From: Lachnospiraceae bacterium
Lineage (GTDB): Bacteria; Bacillota; Clostridia; Lachnospirales; Lachnospiraceae
Length of the DNA stretch: 41,880 nt
Direction of reading: 5' to 3'
NCBI GenBank assembly: GCA_022781395.1
Contig: JALETS010000056.1
Location: 1-41,880 of the forward strand
Of this stretch, positions 2,216 to 7,659 are shown piece by piece. Each line of letters starts with the position of its first letter. Within the stretch, counting starts at the first letter, position 1. Below the pieces are notes generated by a model, which saw only the letters and a program-made list of their open reading frames with translations, was not told the DNA's origin and searched no databases. The translations under genes and the position numbers were made by a program.

Positions 2216-2234
2216 GAAAGGTATGATTACTATT

Positions 2235-3002
2235 ATGGAATACACAGTGCATCAACTGGCACAGCTGGCAGGCGTAACGGTCAGAACACTTCATCACTAT
2301 GATCAGATAGGCATTTTGCGCCCACAGAAGAGGCAGGAAAATGGGTATCGGCTATATGGTGAGGATGAAGTAGATATATTGCAGCAAATCTTACTTTATA
2401 GGGAAATAGGATTTACATTACAGCAGATTAAAGAAATAATGAATGATCCGGATTATAGCCGTGCAGAAGTGTTATCAGAGCAGCTGGATGCATTGATTCA
2501 CAAGAGAAACCGGCTGGAGCAGACAATAGCGACAGTTCAAAGGACGCTGCGCATGATGGAGGGGGAAGAGATTCTGTCTGATGAAGATAAATTTATTGGA
2601 TTAAAACATTCCATTGTTGAGATGAATGAAAAGGCATTTGGCAGGGAATTGCGTACACGCTTTGGTGATGAAATCATAGATGGGGCAAATCAGAAAATGG
2701 TCAGTCTTAATACGGGAGAATGGAATGATTTATCTGTATTGGAAGGACGCATTTTTGATTTGCTTGCCAAGGCCTATCATGAAGGAGACTATAAAAGCGA
2801 AATTGCAATGGAAGCCTGTGAACTGCACAAGGAATGGATATGCTTACAATGGAAAAAAGGAACATATTCTCCTGAAATGCATATGGCGCTTGTAGAGGGG
2901 TATACTGATGATGAACGATTCCGGGCTTACTATGACAGGATAGGAGAAGGCTGTACGCTTTTTCTTCGCGATGCAATGAAGTATTTTCTGTTTTCGAAAT
3001 AG
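2235..3002 (+). CDS. MerR-family regulator with C-terminal TipAS drug-binding domain
   Basis: A 255-residue activator. The winged helix-turn-helix occupies residues ~1-70 (YTVHQLAQLAGVTVRTLHHY, then GYRLY), the classic MerR signature. A dimerisation helix follows at ~75-110 (LIHKRNRLEQTIATVQRTL). The rest resembles the TipAS/antibiotic-recognition domain (motifs such as ACELHKEW and GYTDDERFRAYYD). TipAS regulators (TipAL, Mta, SkgA) bind thiopeptides or other multi-drug ligands and untwist long-spacer promoters. I chose ATG 2235, where the MerR homology begins. ATG 2223 is in frame but sits one base from the AGGAAAGG ribosome site. The gene ends the MerR/protease unit; no clear terminator follows. 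Confidence 0.88.
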   Translation: MEYTVHQLAQLAGVTVRTLHHYDQIGILRPQKRQENGYRLYGEDEVDILQQILLYREIGFTLQQIKEIMNDPDYSRAEVLSEQLDALIHKRNRLEQTIATVQRTLRMMEGEEILSDEDKFIGLKHSIVEMNEKAFGRELRTRFGDEIIDGANQKMVSLNTGEWNDLSVLEGRIFDLLAKAYHEGDYKSEIAMEACELHKEWICLQWKKGTYSPEMHMALVEGYTDDERFRAYYDRIGEGCTLFLRDAMKYFLFSK

Positions 3003-3083: not shown

Positions 3084-3112
3084 TTGTCAAATTAACATTT
3101 ATCCTATATAAT
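3084..3112 (+). promoter_or_regulatory. Promoter of tRNA-Gln
   Basis: TTGTCA (3084-3089), a 17-bp spacer and a perfect TATAAT (3107-3112) lie 13 bp upstream of the mature tRNA 5' end. The region before it (3003-3083) is A/T-rich and holds no gene that I can support. Confidence 0.8.
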
Positions 3113-3125
3113 CGTTAATTGTTGA

Positions 3126-3197
3126 TGGGCTATCGCCAAACGGTAAGGCAACGGACTCTGACTCCGTCATTTCAAGGTTCGAATCCTTGTAGCCCAG
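3126..3197 (+). tRNA. tRNA-Gln (anticodon CUG)
   Basis: A full cloverleaf can be drawn. The acceptor stem is TGGGCTA/TAGCCCA, the D stem GCC/GGC, the anticodon stem ACGGA/TCCGT with loop CTCTGAC (anticodon CTG), and the T arm CAAGG-TTCGAAT-CCTTG. The discriminator base is G, as expected for glutamine. CCA is not encoded. It decodes CAG. The unit is a single-tRNA transcript with its own promoter and terminator. Confidence 0.95.
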
Positions 3198-3202
3198 CTT
3201 GG

Positions 3203-3234
3203 AACCTCGAAAGAAATTTTTTCGAGGTTTTTTT
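3203..3234 (+). terminator. Rho-independent terminator of tRNA-Gln
   Basis: AACCTCGAAA (3203-3212) pairs with TTTCGAGGTT (3220-3229) and is followed by T's to 3234. It lies 5 nt after the tRNA, so the transcript ends before the Fur-type promoter at 3246. Confidence 0.9.
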
Positions 3235-3245
3235 GCGCCAAAAGT

Positions 3246-3274
3246 TTGACTATGGATTTTTATTATCATATAAT
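3246..3274 (+). promoter_or_regulatory. Strong sigma-A promoter of the hydrogenase-maturation leader
   Basis: TTGACT (3246-3251), a 17-bp spacer and a perfect TATAAT (3269-3274). It is the only convincing promoter between the tRNA terminator and hydE, and it starts a leader of about 245 nt before the second hairpin. The Fur-family operator overlaps its -10 and start site. Confidence 0.75.
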
Positions 3275-3290
3275 AATGATAATCATTTCT
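3268..3290 (+). promoter_or_regulatory. Fur/PerR-family operator overlapping the -10 box
   Basis: The core AATGATAATCATT (3275-3287) is identical to the centre of the classical 19-bp Fur box; over all 19 positions (3272-3290) I count 15 matches. Read in another register, 3268-3282 matches 12 of 14 defined positions of the PerR consensus TTATAATNATTATAA. Overlap with the -10 and +1 predicts repression when metal is bound. Fur, PerR and Zur cannot be told apart from sequence alone. Confidence 0.65.
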
Positions 3291-3333
3291 GACATCGAAA
3301 ACAGGATTTGAGATGAAAGAGAGGCAATAAACT

Positions 3334-3438
3334 ATGGCTTGGATATGCGTGTTTCAGGGAAACATGGATATCAAAATTATGATAGGCAGAGTATGTAAGG
3401 CTGTATCTTTCAGAAGAAGGATGCAGCTTTTTGTGTAA
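3334..3438 (+). CDS. Possible 34-residue leader ORF
   Basis: ATG 3334 follows GAGAGG (3319-3324) with a 9-nt gap and runs 34 codons to TAA 3436-3438. The peptide begins MAWICVFQGN and ends RRRMQLFV. The first terminator hairpin lies inside its last dozen codons, so translating ribosomes would melt that hairpin. There is no run of a single regulatory codon and no homologue that I recognise. It could equally be chance. Confidence 0.25.
   Translation: MAWICVFQGNMDIKIMIGRVCKAVSFRRRMQLFV
3397..3432 (+). terminator. First leader hairpin with T-tract (T1)
   Basis: GCTGTATC (3400-3407) pairs with GATGCAGC (3420-3427), one G-U pair, and is followed by TTTTT. The stem can be extended by three pairs into the T-tract. 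It has intrinsic-terminator form, though the 12-nt loop makes it weaker than T2. Confidence 0.6.
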
Positions 3439-3496
3439 TAGGAAATTGCTCGTATGTAGTGCAAAGCCAACAAGAATCGACGTAGGAGATTCTTGC

Positions 3497-3525
3497 AAGT
3501 TTCGCTGCCGAGCGAAACTTTTTTT
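3497..3525 (+). terminator. Second leader terminator (T2) abutting the ribosome site
   Basis: A perfect 10-bp stem (AAGTTTCGCT / AGCGAAACTT) with a GCCG loop, running into T's to 3525. The ribosome site TGGAGGT begins one or two bases later and the ORF starts at 3540. No promoter fits between T2 and the ORF, so expression of the hyd operon must read through it. Confidence 0.85.
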
Positions 3526-3539
3526 GTGGAGGTAACGGT

Positions 3540-3821
3540 ATGCAGACAAGAGTAGCAACCATTAGTATCATTATAGAGAATATGGAATCGGTGGAGAAAC
3601 TAAATACACTTTTGCATGAGTATGGACAGTATATTATAGGAAGAATGGGTCTGCCTTACCGCAAATGTAATATTCATATCATCAGTGTGGCGATTGATGC
3701 ACCTCAGGATGCGATCAATGCGCTGTCAGGTAAGATTGGCAAGCTGCCGGGGGTAAACAGTAAGATTGCTTATTCCAGTATCGTGTGCGAGTCGGACGAG
3801 GCGGGAGAGGATTCTGTATGA
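3540..3821 (+). CDS. TM1266-type putative [FeFe]-hydrogenase system regulator
   Basis: A 93-residue protein of the small iron-only hydrogenase system regulator family (TIGR03959, TM1266-like). The fold is an ACT/NikR-like ferredoxin domain: RVATISIIIENMES for the first strand, YIIGRMGLPYR in the middle, ISVAIDAPQDAINALSGKIG towards the end. It has no DNA-binding helix-turn-helix, so its mode of action is unclear; the family is named for its constant position next to hydE/hydG. The ribosome site GGAGGTAAC precedes ATG 3540. Its stop overlaps the hydE start (ATGA at 3818-3821), implying translational coupling. A terminator hairpin lies directly upstream. Confidence 0.85.
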   Translation: MQTRVATISIIIENMESVEKLNTLLHEYGQYIIGRMGLPYRKCNIHIISVAIDAPQDAINALSGKIGKLPGVNSKIAYSSIVCESDEAGEDSV

Positions 3822-4849
3822 AGGAACTGATTGAGAAATTGGCAATAGAGCATGACCTGGCAGACAATGAGTGGCAGCAGCTGATTGAGGGTAAATATGA
3901 CAGGACGTTACTCTATGCAAGGGCTGATGAAATACGTAGACAGAATTACGGAACGGATGTCTATATCAGGGGATTGATAGAGATATCCAGCTATTGCAGA
4001 AATGATTGTCTATACTGTGGTATCCGCAGAAGTAACATGCATGCGGAACGATACCGGTTATCTAAGGAGCAGATATTGGAGTGTTGCAAAACCGGATATC
4101 GGTTAGGTTTCCGTACCTTTGTGATGCAGGGCGGAGAGGATGCTTATTTTACCACGGAATATGTGGCAGAGATCGTAGAAGAGATTAAGAAGCGGTATCC
4201 TGACTGTGCGGTTACGCTTTCCCTGGGAGAACGAGAGAAGGCAGATTATCAGATCTGGTATGATGCGGGGGCAGACCGTTATCTGTTGCGGCATGAGACG
4301 GCAGGAAGGGCGCATTATGGGAAATTGCATCCGCCGGAATTAAGCTATGACCATAGGATGCAGTGTCTATATGATCTCAAAGATATCGGCTATCAGGTGG
4401 GATGCGGCTTTATGGTGGAATCGCCTTATCAGACCGTGGATGATTTGATTGCGGATATGCGGTTCCTTAGAAAATTCCAGCCCCACATGGTTGGCATCGG
4501 GCCATTTATCCCGCACCATGATACTCCCTTTGCAGGCAGCTCTCAGGGAAGCCTGGAGAAGACCCTTACCATGGTAGCTTTGATCAGACTTACACTGCCG
4601 AAGGCATTGATTCCGTCCACAACAGCGCTGGGTACGATACACCCTCGTGGAAGGGAGCTGGGACTGCAGGCGGGAGCTAATGTAGTAATGCCTAATCTGT
4701 CACCGGTATCTGTGAGAAAGCAGTATTCTCTCTATGATAATAAGATATGTACAGGGGACGAGGCGGCAGAGTGTATTGAATGTATGAAAAGAAGAGTTGC
4801 TTCCGTGGGCTATCAGACAGCGGTCTCCAGAGGCGACTGGTGTGGGTAG
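3818..4849 (+). CDS. hydE: HydE, radical SAM [FeFe]-hydrogenase H-cluster maturase
   Basis: A 343-residue radical SAM enzyme needed to assemble the 2Fe subcluster of [FeFe]-hydrogenase, acting on the HydG-derived Fe(CO)2(CN)-cysteine product. The radical SAM cluster motif is C60-x3-C64-x2-C67 (CRNDCLYC). A second C-terminal motif C311-x7-C319-x2-C322 marks the auxiliary iron-sulfur site that many HydE proteins have and that is not essential in those studied. QGGED near residue 104 fits the SAM-binding GGE motif. The start at 3818 overlaps the regulator stop by four bases, and the radical SAM homology begins soon after. hydG follows in 52 nt. Confidence 0.95.
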   Translation: MKELIEKLAIEHDLADNEWQQLIEGKYDRTLLYARADEIRRQNYGTDVYIRGLIEISSYCRNDCLYCGIRRSNMHAERYRLSKEQILECCKTGYRLGFRTFVMQGGEDAYFTTEYVAEIVEEIKKRYPDCAVTLSLGEREKADYQIWYDAGADRYLLRHETAGRAHYGKLHPPELSYDHRMQCLYDLKDIGYQVGCGFMVESPYQTVDDLIADMRFLRKFQPHMVGIGPFIPHHDTPFAGSSQGSLEKTLTMVALIRLTLPKALIPSTTALGTIHPRGRELGLQAGANVVMPNLSPVSVRKQYSLYDNKICTGDEAAECIECMKRRVASVGYQTAVSRGDWCG

Positions 4850-4901: not shown

Positions 4902-6341
4902 ATGTACAATCCGAAATCATTATGTGCAGATGATTTTATTAACCATGAGGAGATTCTGGCAACGCTGGAATATGCGGAGCAGAACAAGAACAATCTGGAG
5001 CTGATCCATCAGATCCTGGAGAAGGCGAAGCCCAAAAAGCAGGGGAACTCTACGGTCTGTGCTGGCTTGAATCACAGGGAGGCTTCGGTGCTGCTGGCCT
5101 GTGAAGACCCGGAGGTACTGGAGCAGATGTATGCACTGGCAGAGGAGATCAAGCTGGCATACTACGGAAACCGTATCGTTATCTTTGCACCGCTGTATCT
5201 GTCCAATTACTGTGTCAACGGCTGTGTATACTGCCCGTATCACATGAGAAACAAGCACATTCCACGTAAGAAGCTGACACAGGAGGAAGTGAAGCAGGAG
5301 GTTATCGCTTTACAGGATATGGGACATAAACGTCTGGCGATCGAGGCAGGCGAGGATCCCCAAAATAATCCTATTGAATATATTCTGGAGTGTATCAAGA
5401 CAATTTATTCCATCCAGCATAAAAACGGTGCGATCCGCCGAGTGAATGTGAACATTGCAGCGACTACGGTGGAGGAATACCGTATGCTGAAGGAAGCAGG
5501 GATTGGTACCTATATTCTGTTCCAGGAGACTTACCATAAGGAAAGTTATCTGCAACTCCATCCTACCGGGCCAAAGCATGATTACAATTATCATACGGAG
5601 GCAATGGACAGAGCCATGGAAGGTGGCATTGACGATGTGGGTCTGGGTGTGCTGTTTGGTCTGGAGCGTTATAAATATGAGTTTGCGGGCTTGTTGATGC
5701 ATGCGGAGCATCTGGAGGCTGTGCATGGCGTTGGCCCTCATACCATCAGTGTGCCTCGTGTGAAAAGGGCTGATGATATCGATCCGAGTGCTTTTGATAA
5801 TGGTATCAGTGACGATATTTTTGCCAAGATCTGTGCTCTGATCCGTATTGCAGTACCTTATACCGGCATGATCATCTCTACCAGAGAGAGTCAGGCAGTA
5901 CGTGAGAAAGTAATCCGTCTGGGGGTATCCCAGATATCCGGTGCTTCCAGAACCTCTGTAGGAGGTTATACAGAGGAAACCCGTCCTACTGATACGGAGC
6001 AGTTTGATGTGTCCGATCAGCGTACCTTGGATGAAGTGGTCAGATGGCTGATGGAGATGGGATATATCCCTTCCTTCTGTACGGCATGCTATCGGGAAGG
6101 CAGAACGGGAGATCGTTTCATGAGTCTGTGTAAGTCGGGTCAGATTCAGAACTGTTGTCATCCCAATGCATTGATGACCTTAAAGGAATATCTGATGGAC
6201 TATGCTTCCGAGGAGACCAGAGCTATCGGGGAAGCGCTGATTCAGGCAGAGCTGAACAATATTCCGAAGGAGCATGTAAGAGAGATTGCCAGAGACCATC
6301 TGGCTAAGATTGAGGAAGGAATCCGGGATTTCCGGTTCTAG
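4902..6341 (+). CDS. hydG: HydG, tyrosine lyase supplying CO and cyanide for the H-cluster
   Basis: A 479-residue radical SAM enzyme that cleaves tyrosine to p-cresol, CO and CN- and builds an Fe(CO)2(CN) synthon. The radical SAM motif is C104-x3-C108-x2-C111 (CVNGCVYC). The C-terminal auxiliary cluster motif C393-x2-C396-x22-C419, specific to HydG and absent from ThiH-like tyrosine lyases, is complete. An IEAGEDP motif near residue 147 is typical. Length matches the family. The ribosome site AAGGGAAGGAAGG lies upstream of ATG 4902. It lies between hydE and hydF in one operon. Confidence 0.97.
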   Translation: MYNPKSLCADDFINHEEILATLEYAEQNKNNLELIHQILEKAKPKKQGNSTVCAGLNHREASVLLACEDPEVLEQMYALAEEIKLAYYGNRIVIFAPLYLSNYCVNGCVYCPYHMRNKHIPRKKLTQEEVKQEVIALQDMGHKRLAIEAGEDPQNNPIEYILECIKTIYSIQHKNGAIRRVNVNIAATTVEEYRMLKEAGIGTYILFQETYHKESYLQLHPTGPKHDYNYHTEAMDRAMEGGIDDVGLGVLFGLERYKYEFAGLLMHAEHLEAVHGVGPHTISVPRVKRADDIDPSAFDNGISDDIFAKICALIRIAVPYTGMIISTRESQAVREKVIRLGVSQISGASRTSVGGYTEETRPTDTEQFDVSDQRTLDEVVRWLMEMGYIPSFCTACYREGRTGDRFMSLCKSGQIQNCCHPNALMTLKEYLMDYASEETRAIGEALIQAELNNIPKEHVREIARDHLAKIEEGIRDFRF

Positions 6342-6402: not shown

Positions 6403-7659
6403 ATGGGAATGAATAACACACCTTCGGGAGAGAGAATTCATATCGGATTTTTCGGTAGAAGAAACGCGGGTAAGTCCAGCCTTGTCAATGCAGTAACAGG
6501 ACAGGAACTGGCGGTAGTATCGGAGCAGAAGGGAACCACAACAGACCCTGTTTATAAAGCGATGGAGCTTTTACCACTGGGTCCCGTCATGATCATTGAT
6601 ACGCCGGGCTTTGATGATGAAGGAAGTCTGGGTGAGCTTCGTGTGAAAAAAACGAAGCAGGTTCTTAACAAAACCGATGTGGCTGTACTGGTAGTGGATG
6701 CCACAGAAGGTCTTGGACCCTGTGACAGGGAACTGATTACACTTTTCAGGCAGAAGGAGCTTCCTTATATCATAGCTGTTAATAAGGCGGATCTGACCGG
6801 AGATCCGGAAGAACTGGTGGGAAAAGTGTCTGAGCAGATAAAGGATGATGGAACCGGCAAAGAAGCCGTTGGCGGCGCATCTGCCGTGGTAGCGGTCAGT
6901 GCATTGAAGACGCAGGGAATCTATGAACTGAAGGAGACTATCGGTAAGCTGGCAGCAGAGGAAGAGAATGACAAACGACTGGTGGGAGACCTGGTAAAGC
7001 CCGGTGATCTGGTCGTTCTGGTGGTGCCGATTGATTCTGCGGCACCGAAAGGAAGGCTGATTCTTCCCCAGCAGCAGGCCATTAGGGATCTGCTGGAGGC
7101 GGGTGTTGCCTCTGCGGTCGTCAGGGAGAGCGAACTGGATGACACACTGAAACGGCTTGGACAGAAACCGGCCATGGTCATTACGGACAGTCAGGCCTTT
7201 GAAGAGGTGGCGAAGATTGTGCCGGAGGATGTGACTCTCACTTCTTTTTCCATTTTAATGGCACGTTATAAGGGGCTGCTGGATCTGGCGGTGGATGGCG
7301 TGAAGGCCATTGGTAAGCTTAAGGATGGTGACCGTGTGCTGATTTCGGAGGGATGCACTCATCACAGACAGTGTGATGATATCGGTACCGTGAAAATTCC
7401 ACGGTGGCTGAAGCAGCATACCGGTAAGGAACTGATAATAGAGACTTCTTCCGGCATGGGCTTTCCGGAGGAGCTGTCCCCTTATGCGATGATTATTCAT
7501 TGTGGTGGCTGTATGCTGAATGAGAAAGAGATAAGGTACCGTATGAAGTGCGCCAAAGATGCGGGAGTTTCCATCACGAACTATGGGATTGTCATCGCTT
7601 ATATGAAAGGAATTTTGCAAAGAAGTATCTCCCTTTTCCCGTATCTGCATTTGTCATAG
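6403..7659 (+). CDS. hydF: HydF, GTPase scaffold for H-cluster assembly
   Basis: A 418-residue GTPase and iron-sulfur scaffold that receives the 2Fe precursor and delivers it to apo-hydrogenase. The GTPase domain has a P-loop GRRNAGKS (18-25), DTPGF (66-70) and NKAD (127-130). The C-terminal cluster-binding motif C318-T-H320 ... H366-C367-G-G-C370 is intact. Start 6403 follows GGGAAAGGCAG at a normal distance; the in-frame upstream extension overlaps the end of hydG and lacks homology. A second ATG (6409) two codons on is possible. It is the last gene of the maturation operon; a terminator follows at 7686. No hydA is present in the window. Confidence 0.95.
   Translation: MGMNNTPSGERIHIGFFGRRNAGKSSLVNAVTGQELAVVSEQKGTTTDPVYKAMELLPLGPVMIIDTPGFDDEGSLGELRVKKTKQVLNKTDVAVLVVDATEGLGPCDRELITLFRQKELPYIIAVNKADLTGDPEELVGKVSEQIKDDGTGKEAVGGASAVVAVSALKTQGIYELKETIGKLAAEEENDKRLVGDLVKPGDLVVLVVPIDSAAPKGRLILPQQQAIRDLLEAGVASAVVRESELDDTLKRLGQKPAMVITDSQAFEEVAKIVPEDVTLTSFSILMARYKGLLDLAVDGVKAIGKLKDGDRVLISEGCTHHRQCDDIGTVKIPRWLKQHTGKELIIETSSGMGFPEELSPYAMIIHCGGCMLNEKEIRYRMKCAKDAGVSITNYGIVIAYMKGILQRSISLFPYLHLS

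Follow-up and report, generated by a model that had tools for sequence, protein, structure and literature searches.

In the leaders of Firmicutes, T-box RNAs bring about attenuation by alternative pairing, and in the protein-controlled attenuators of the ANTAR, PyrR and L10 types the controlling site is a small hairpin. To our knowledge, it is poorly understood how bacteria match the building of the H-cluster to demand. A survey of candidate RNAs appeared in 2017, and it may contain an earlier description of the leader that we present here. This leader lies ahead of the [FeFe]-hydrogenase maturation (hyd) genes of a Lachnospiraceae bacterium. With riboswitch-type attenuators it shares the position in a 5' leader, a structured conserved domain, a mutually exclusive terminator and a single pathway behind it; unlike the known ones, its putative sensor matches no Rfam family, and it is a candidate riboswitch. 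Like T-box leaders, the hyd leader would use attenuation by alternative pairing, whereas the hyd window has no Rfam T-box match and a tRNA partner is not indicated. As in the ANTAR, PyrR and L10 types, a short RNA hairpin would decide between terminator and antiterminator, but for the hyd hairpin the protein, TM1266, is a candidate.

In Rfam, the tRNA upstream of the leader was the sole match in the window (the whole stretch of 41,880 nucleotides that was analysed), in agreement with the initial annotation, which had recognised no riboswitch class. A search with the leader region (3200-3560) returned six weak rows at chance level and a search with six other leaders four weak rows, with no family match in either case. 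The class of leader that carries T1, the first of two terminators here, is new to Rfam. The matches listed for TM1266, HydE, HydF or HydG together with riboswitch, attenuation or motif held no paper on such a leader, and novelty rests on these searches and on Rfam; the terms that we looked up are absent from PMC2965389 and PMC11109978. According to an excerpt of PMC5651825, a hydrogenase cluster of Eubacterium limosum is preceded by a Moco motif, which is a different RNA from the hyd hairpin.

The leader and the operon behind it comprise the following features:

3246 to 3274, forward strand: promoter-like site TTGACT-17-TATAAT (consensus scan, 11 of 12, one of the scan's two best)
3272 to 3290, forward strand: Fur-box-like 19-mer (15 of 19 against a Fur-box consensus)
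3285 to 3325, forward strand: conserved hairpin motif, presumed sensor (model R1 40.5 bits, E 4.5e-7; covariation)
3314 to 3320, forward strand: UGAAAGA, 3' strand of the hairpin and putative antiterminator partner of 3406-3412 (7 pairs)
3397 to 3432, forward strand: T1, putative attenuator terminator (fold z -5.9; complementarity test over 66 loci)
3433 to 3525, forward strand: element E, ending in T2 (10 core matches in the genome, duplication test, terminator upstream)
3526 to 3539, forward strand: ribosome site of the TM1266-family gene (GTGGAGGTAACGGT ahead of ATG)
3540 to 3821, forward strand: TM1266-family protein, putative regulator of the hydrogenase system (TIGR03959 above cut-off)
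3821 to 4849, forward strand: hydE (TIGR03956 above cut-off)
4902 to 6341, forward strand: hydG (TIGR03955 above cut-off)
6403 to 7659, forward strand: hydF (TIGR03918 above cut-off)

Fourteen bases separate T2 from the start codon, with the ribosome site inside them, and the consensus scan found no promoter-like site starting between 3275 and 3542. The scan itself carries little weight, since it yielded 15 promoter-like sites compared with 13.8 in shuffles, i.e. chance level; still, the earlier statement that T2 abuts the ribosome site with no room for a promoter agrees with both observations. The promoter-like site at 3246-3274 is overlapped by the Fur-box-like 19-mer. Just upstream of the leader there is a tRNA-Gln (CTG) gene at 3126-3236, which has a promoter-like site in front of it (3084-3112) and an end that resembles a terminator. 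Further upstream, 1283-2215 codes for a DUF2268 protease-like protein and 2223-3002 for a MerR regulator that contains a TipAS domain.

Of 397 genomes of the family, 203 were found to contain TM1266, as were 22 of 41 relatives. From these we compared 111 leaders, the window included: 22 from the relatives, and 29 plus 60 that were the best-scoring family matches from the 203 genomes. Among them the motif YCUGAC..(stem-loop)..GAAAGR stood out. In the window it folds into a hairpin with the pairs 3288-3290/3318-3320, 3293-3296/3312-3315 and 3299-3301/3307-3309, which contains two 2x2 purine internal loops (GA/AA, then GA/GA) with four pairs between them. The seed alignment of model R1 holds 21 examples that were picked by conserved letters at both ends, so that the two invariant pairs are uninformative; the inner pairs were not picked in this way. 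Changes on both sides were observed in eight of the ten pairs, and 88.5% of the cells in the 21 seeds were paired versus 75.2% after shuffling. When the pair partners were slid along the seed alignment, the paired cells fell to 50% or less. An alignment of 48 distinct matches, which was fitted to R1 and is hence biased towards it, gave 91.3% paired cells versus 74.0% shuffled and a covariation score of 0.512 versus 0.183. The outermost pair is the weakest (unpaired in 20 of 48 rows). The hairpin is therefore a conserved structured domain with compensatory changes, as is expected of a riboswitch. Tandem sensor copies occur in some riboswitches, and at two loci, L236 and L244 (1501-1590, minus strand), two hairpins were found in tandem, the 5' one being weaker (E 0.0046) and of the same architecture.

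T1 is made of a 5' arm (3397-3411), a loop (3412-3415), a 3' arm (3416-3430) and five T ending at 3432. The region 3390-3440 folds at -20.7 kcal/mol compared with -8.2 for shuffles (z -5.9), the region 3460-3530, T2 included, has a z of -3.0, and the whole leader (3281-3525) one of -5.0, with none of 200 shuffles equally stable. T1 (3397-3432) and T2 (3497-3525) thus both have the intrinsic-terminator form that the initial annotation had ascribed to them. The terminator consensus scan found T2 (stem-loop 3497-3520, 10 pairs) and missed T1, presumably because the long stem of T1 uses part of the T-run (AAG pairs with the T-run).

The hairpin and T1 are connected by complementarity. UGAAAGA at 3314-3320, in the 3' strand of the hairpin, is complementary to UCUUUCA at 3406-3412, which spans the 5' arm and the loop of T1. 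The same relation was found at other loci: at L188 AAAGACGCAG pairs with CUGUGUCUUU, and at L124 GAAAGAUCCAGC pairs with GCUGCAUCUUUC, with one mismatch. By a permissive stem scan that was run without a control, a terminator-like stem follows the motif at all 68 loci, with 66 of the stems at -7 kcal/mol or lower, so that an intrinsic terminator stands between the presumed sensor and the gene, as it would in an attenuator. In these 66 loci the hairpin 3' strand pairs with the 5' arm of its own terminator at a mean of -11.86 kcal/mol, compared with -8.70 for permuted terminators (sd 0.32) and -7.25 for shuffled strands. The value for own terminators was matched by none of 20000 permutations, a count that overstates significance because related loci are not independent. 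The own terminator was in the best quarter for 48 of the 66 loci and ranked 41st or worse in seven.

Several loci were left out of the stem scan: L228, L230, L231, L233, L198 and L200 as chance matches, L202 at a contig end, L189 as the same locus as L124, and L212, L219, L227, L257 and L259 as repeats. For L219 and L227, which had no other copy in the set, the exclusion was over-strict; the near-copies L213/L214 and L103/L191 were kept. L242 and L256, with stems weaker than -7, were dropped from the complementarity test, and at L187, L229, L235, L239, L244, L250 and L254 a longer or other stem was picked than the one seen by eye.

Folding of the growing transcript indicates when the two structures would compete. 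For a transcript ending at 3412 the antiterminator fold is the best one, with -32.8 kcal/mol versus -27.6 with the hairpin forced, and so it is at 3418, where the values are -33.3 and -27.9. Once 3432 is reached, the combination of hairpin and T1 wins by about 10 kcal/mol (-45.5 versus -35.2). Together with the complementarity test, these folds describe the mutually exclusive antiterminator of an attenuator. Judged by the energies, a growing RNA that is left alone should pass T1 by way of the antiterminator, and a hairpin that is held should favour T1. Since the 3' strand of the hairpin is complementary to the T1 arm, a held hairpin should terminate and an opened one antiterminate.

Taken together, the leader is probably an OFF-type attenuator of a conserved class for [FeFe]-hydrogenase maturation, perhaps a riboswitch, which has been disturbed here by an insertion. 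The 41-nt hairpin at 3285-3325 would be its sensor. In the OFF state a signal would hold the folded hairpin, UGAAAGA would be hidden, T1 could form and transcription would stop at about 3432. In the ON state the hairpin would not be held, UGAAAGA would pair with UCUUUCA in the 5' arm of T1, T1 would not form and the operon would be read. The regulated antitermination that the initial annotation had predicted thus finds agreement at T1, through 3314-3320 and 3406-3412, and it fails at T2, which is part of an inserted repeat (see below).

An alternative would be that T1 ends a small RNA which is under Fur control and acts in trans, with the hyd operon being read by leak only. Such an RNA would be about 150 nt long, the leader is single copy in the genome, and its start carries the Fur-like site (15 of 19 to the consensus). 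However, at 14 or more of 19 positions of that consensus, a Fur-like site is present in just four of the 111 TM1266 leaders, and the hairpin is conserved in cis ahead of hyd genes and pairs with its own terminator. The recurrence of the hairpin ahead of hyd genes and its match to the terminator next to it point to control in cis, and we regard a small RNA acting in trans as very unlikely.

The hairpin is found well beyond this genome, in which the leader is the single strong R1 match (E 4.5e-7; next match E 0.05). At E<=0.01, 28 of the 111 TM1266 leaders match, 21 of them being seeds, and the majority (83 of 111) bear no motif. With E-values of R1 that are rough, matches were found in 46 of 299 whole genomes of the family (E<=0.05, about 15 expected), in 24 of 246 genomes of the order (E<=0.005, about one expected) and, for the class, in 44 of 391 genomes sampled (E<=0.005, about two expected). 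Loci of the class were fetched down to E 5.3e-4, which left out 14 weaker matches (E 5.9e-4 to 0.0048). A hyd maturation gene or TM1266 lies behind the motif in 58 of the 65 fetched loci (E<=1e-3, window excluded), the nearest match being TM1266 in 48, HydG in six, HydE in three and HydF in one; near-copies were counted apart. The median distance from motif to hyd gene in the 65 fetched loci was 96 bases, and the largest distance, 433, is a coordinate error at L189. Even with the seeds removed, TM1266, HydE, HydF or HydG followed the hairpin in 44 of 51 loci (E<=1e-3). Of the 44 motif genomes in the class sample, 41 have HydE at E<=1e-80, as read by eye, and 257 of the 391 genomes passed the HydE cut-off; the Fisher p of 1.4e-5 for this comparison hence combines two slightly different criteria. 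Two of the exceptions (G678 and G911) are 76 and 79% complete and carry TM1266 or HydG beside the motif, and the third (G958) has a weak motif match.

Another context was seen at seven of the 65 loci (L196, L197, L224, L225, L251, L198 and L228). A FecCD permease gene lies directly behind TM1266 at L196 and a gene for an SsuA-like binding protein behind the hairpin at L197; genes of these two kinds adjoin TM1266 or the hairpin at L242, L232 and L234 as well. They might possibly represent a transport partner of the pathway. At L251 (1501-3040) the hairpin precedes aspartate ammonia-lyase, and at L225 (1501-2801) and L224 a hairpin variant with a terminator precedes a NifH-like gene and a nitrogenase-component-like ORF, both classified from L225 alone. 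L198 and L228 (E 7e-4 to 9e-4) lie inside ORFs and were taken as chance, and the weaker matches L200, L201, L203-L210, L230, L231 and L233, mostly inside ORFs, were judged likewise, L210 being the less clear case.

What could hold the hairpin? The signal would most likely be a small molecule or an ion tied to the building of the H-cluster, i.e. the leader would be a riboswitch; this is our first choice because the motif is self-contained, its loops are conserved and it is tied to one pathway. The main alternative would be that the hairpin serves as an RNA operator for a protein, in the simplest case TM1266, which would autoregulate the hyd operon through attenuation. At 48 of 65 loci TM1266 is the first gene after the motif, more often than any other, and a small hairpin that carries two purine loops might act as a binding site for a protein. 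TM1266 was also present in all 14 motif genomes checked, which says little, as it is expected in any hydrogenase genome, and we found no RNA-binding evidence for it. In a sequence search with TM1266, 2nzc was the sole solved relative, and an excerpt of PMC9679718 terms TM1266 a transcription factor. We see a protein operator as a possibility to be taken seriously, though a rather unlikely one. Returning to the riboswitch, we are evenly divided on the fuller proposal: a new class, widespread in Clostridia, that has a compound or metal of H-cluster assembly as its ligand, shuts the biosynthesis genes, and also governs the FecCD permease, the SsuA-like protein, aspartate ammonia-lyase and the NifH-like operon. 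A conserved RNA before HydE, HydF, HydG and TM1266 in many families offers a handle on H-cluster regulation, and a ligand or protein partner of the hairpin would name the signal. The rarer targets (FecCD, SsuA-like transport, aspartate ammonia-lyase and the NifH-like pair) may hint at pathway components that are still missing.

The second half of the leader has a different origin: T2 is the 3' end of an inserted dispersed repeat and not part of the original leader. A genome search with the leader returned the leader itself and 13 other pieces, all of which match the second half only, from 3426, and 3426-3524 is a repeat in this genome. Element E, whose left border is uncertain by about four bases, consists of a core (3437-3461), an optional hairpin (about 3471-3495) and the terminator T2 (3497-3525). 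With up to two mismatches, its core RATAGGAAATTGCTCGTATGTAGTG gave 27 matches in four of 200 family genomes (10 here, six in G006, 10 in G151 and one in G031), and the reversed pattern gave none among the matches listed. In a named genome collection the exact core occurs at 12 loci, in Lachnospiraceae MAGs. The copies (L024-L050) are modular, with the core, the optional hairpin and a terminator stem that is genome-specific and yet still paired.

A terminator-like stem (-9 kcal/mol or lower) lies upstream of 22 of the 27 copies, compared with 10 of 324 positions drawn at random from these loci, and the upstream ORF runs in the same direction as element E in 23 of the 25 copies where one was found. 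The copies also appear to be flanked by a short duplication. When the bases after the upstream T-run were compared with those after the element's own T-run, the mean identical run was 2.04 versus 0.90 permuted (sd 0.22; none of 20000 permutations; n=24). In this comparison no downstream T-run was recognised for three of the 27 copies, the choice of T-run is doubtful in L043, L047 and L049, and an older copy of the element may adjoin L029 and L030. In the window, element E has TTTTTGTG on either side, and if its flanks are joined without it, an ordinary leader end results, with T1 and then the ribosome site. The core is absent from the other 110 TM1266 leaders. In this lineage, element E with its own T2 would thus have entered the leader after T1 and ahead of the ribosome site, and expression here should then need read-through of T2 too.

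It had been proposed that T2 itself is a regulated terminator, with GCUCG at 3448-3452 as antiterminator. When 3430-3530 is folded locally, with T1 left out, 3448-3452 does pair with 3509-3513, and some other copies of element E also lie close before an ORF (30 bases at L030, 35 at L033). However, both partners fall within the repeat, and its copies do not conserve the pairing: all six G006 copies retain GCTCG in the same core, but the terminator stem that they carry, CGGATGC...GCATCCG, lacks CGAGC and the pairing is lost. In some of the G151 copies CGAGC is kept in part (GAGC). The element also occurs behind many unrelated terminators, none of the other 110 hyd leaders carries it, and we consider regulation at T2 highly improbable. 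If the leader was regulated, homologous loci had been expected to keep the T2 hairpin and to show compensatory changes; the former is absent from the other 110 leaders, and the latter are found in number in the upstream hairpin, so that regulation of the leader as a whole is still supported.

Element E resembles MITEs and other small dispersed repeats in that it is short, multi-copy and flanked by a short duplication, with no coding sequence seen; its near-identical copies at unrelated places and the target duplication are what is expected of MITE-like repeats. In contrast to MITEs, it sits behind intrinsic terminators and its modules vary between genomes. In the plasmid and phage collections no relatives of the leader were found at E 1e-5, and in viral contigs no exact core; these collections may omit records near this genome. 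Some group II introns insert behind terminators. As a mover of element E, a group II intron was not supported: RVT_1, the sole enzyme sought, was found in G000 and G031 and not in G006 and G151, which are 67 and 72% complete. The insertion illustrates how a repeat found behind terminators can come to lie at a regulatory one. At L033, element E lies behind a T-box leader (97.2 bits), so that another switch seems to have been hit likewise.
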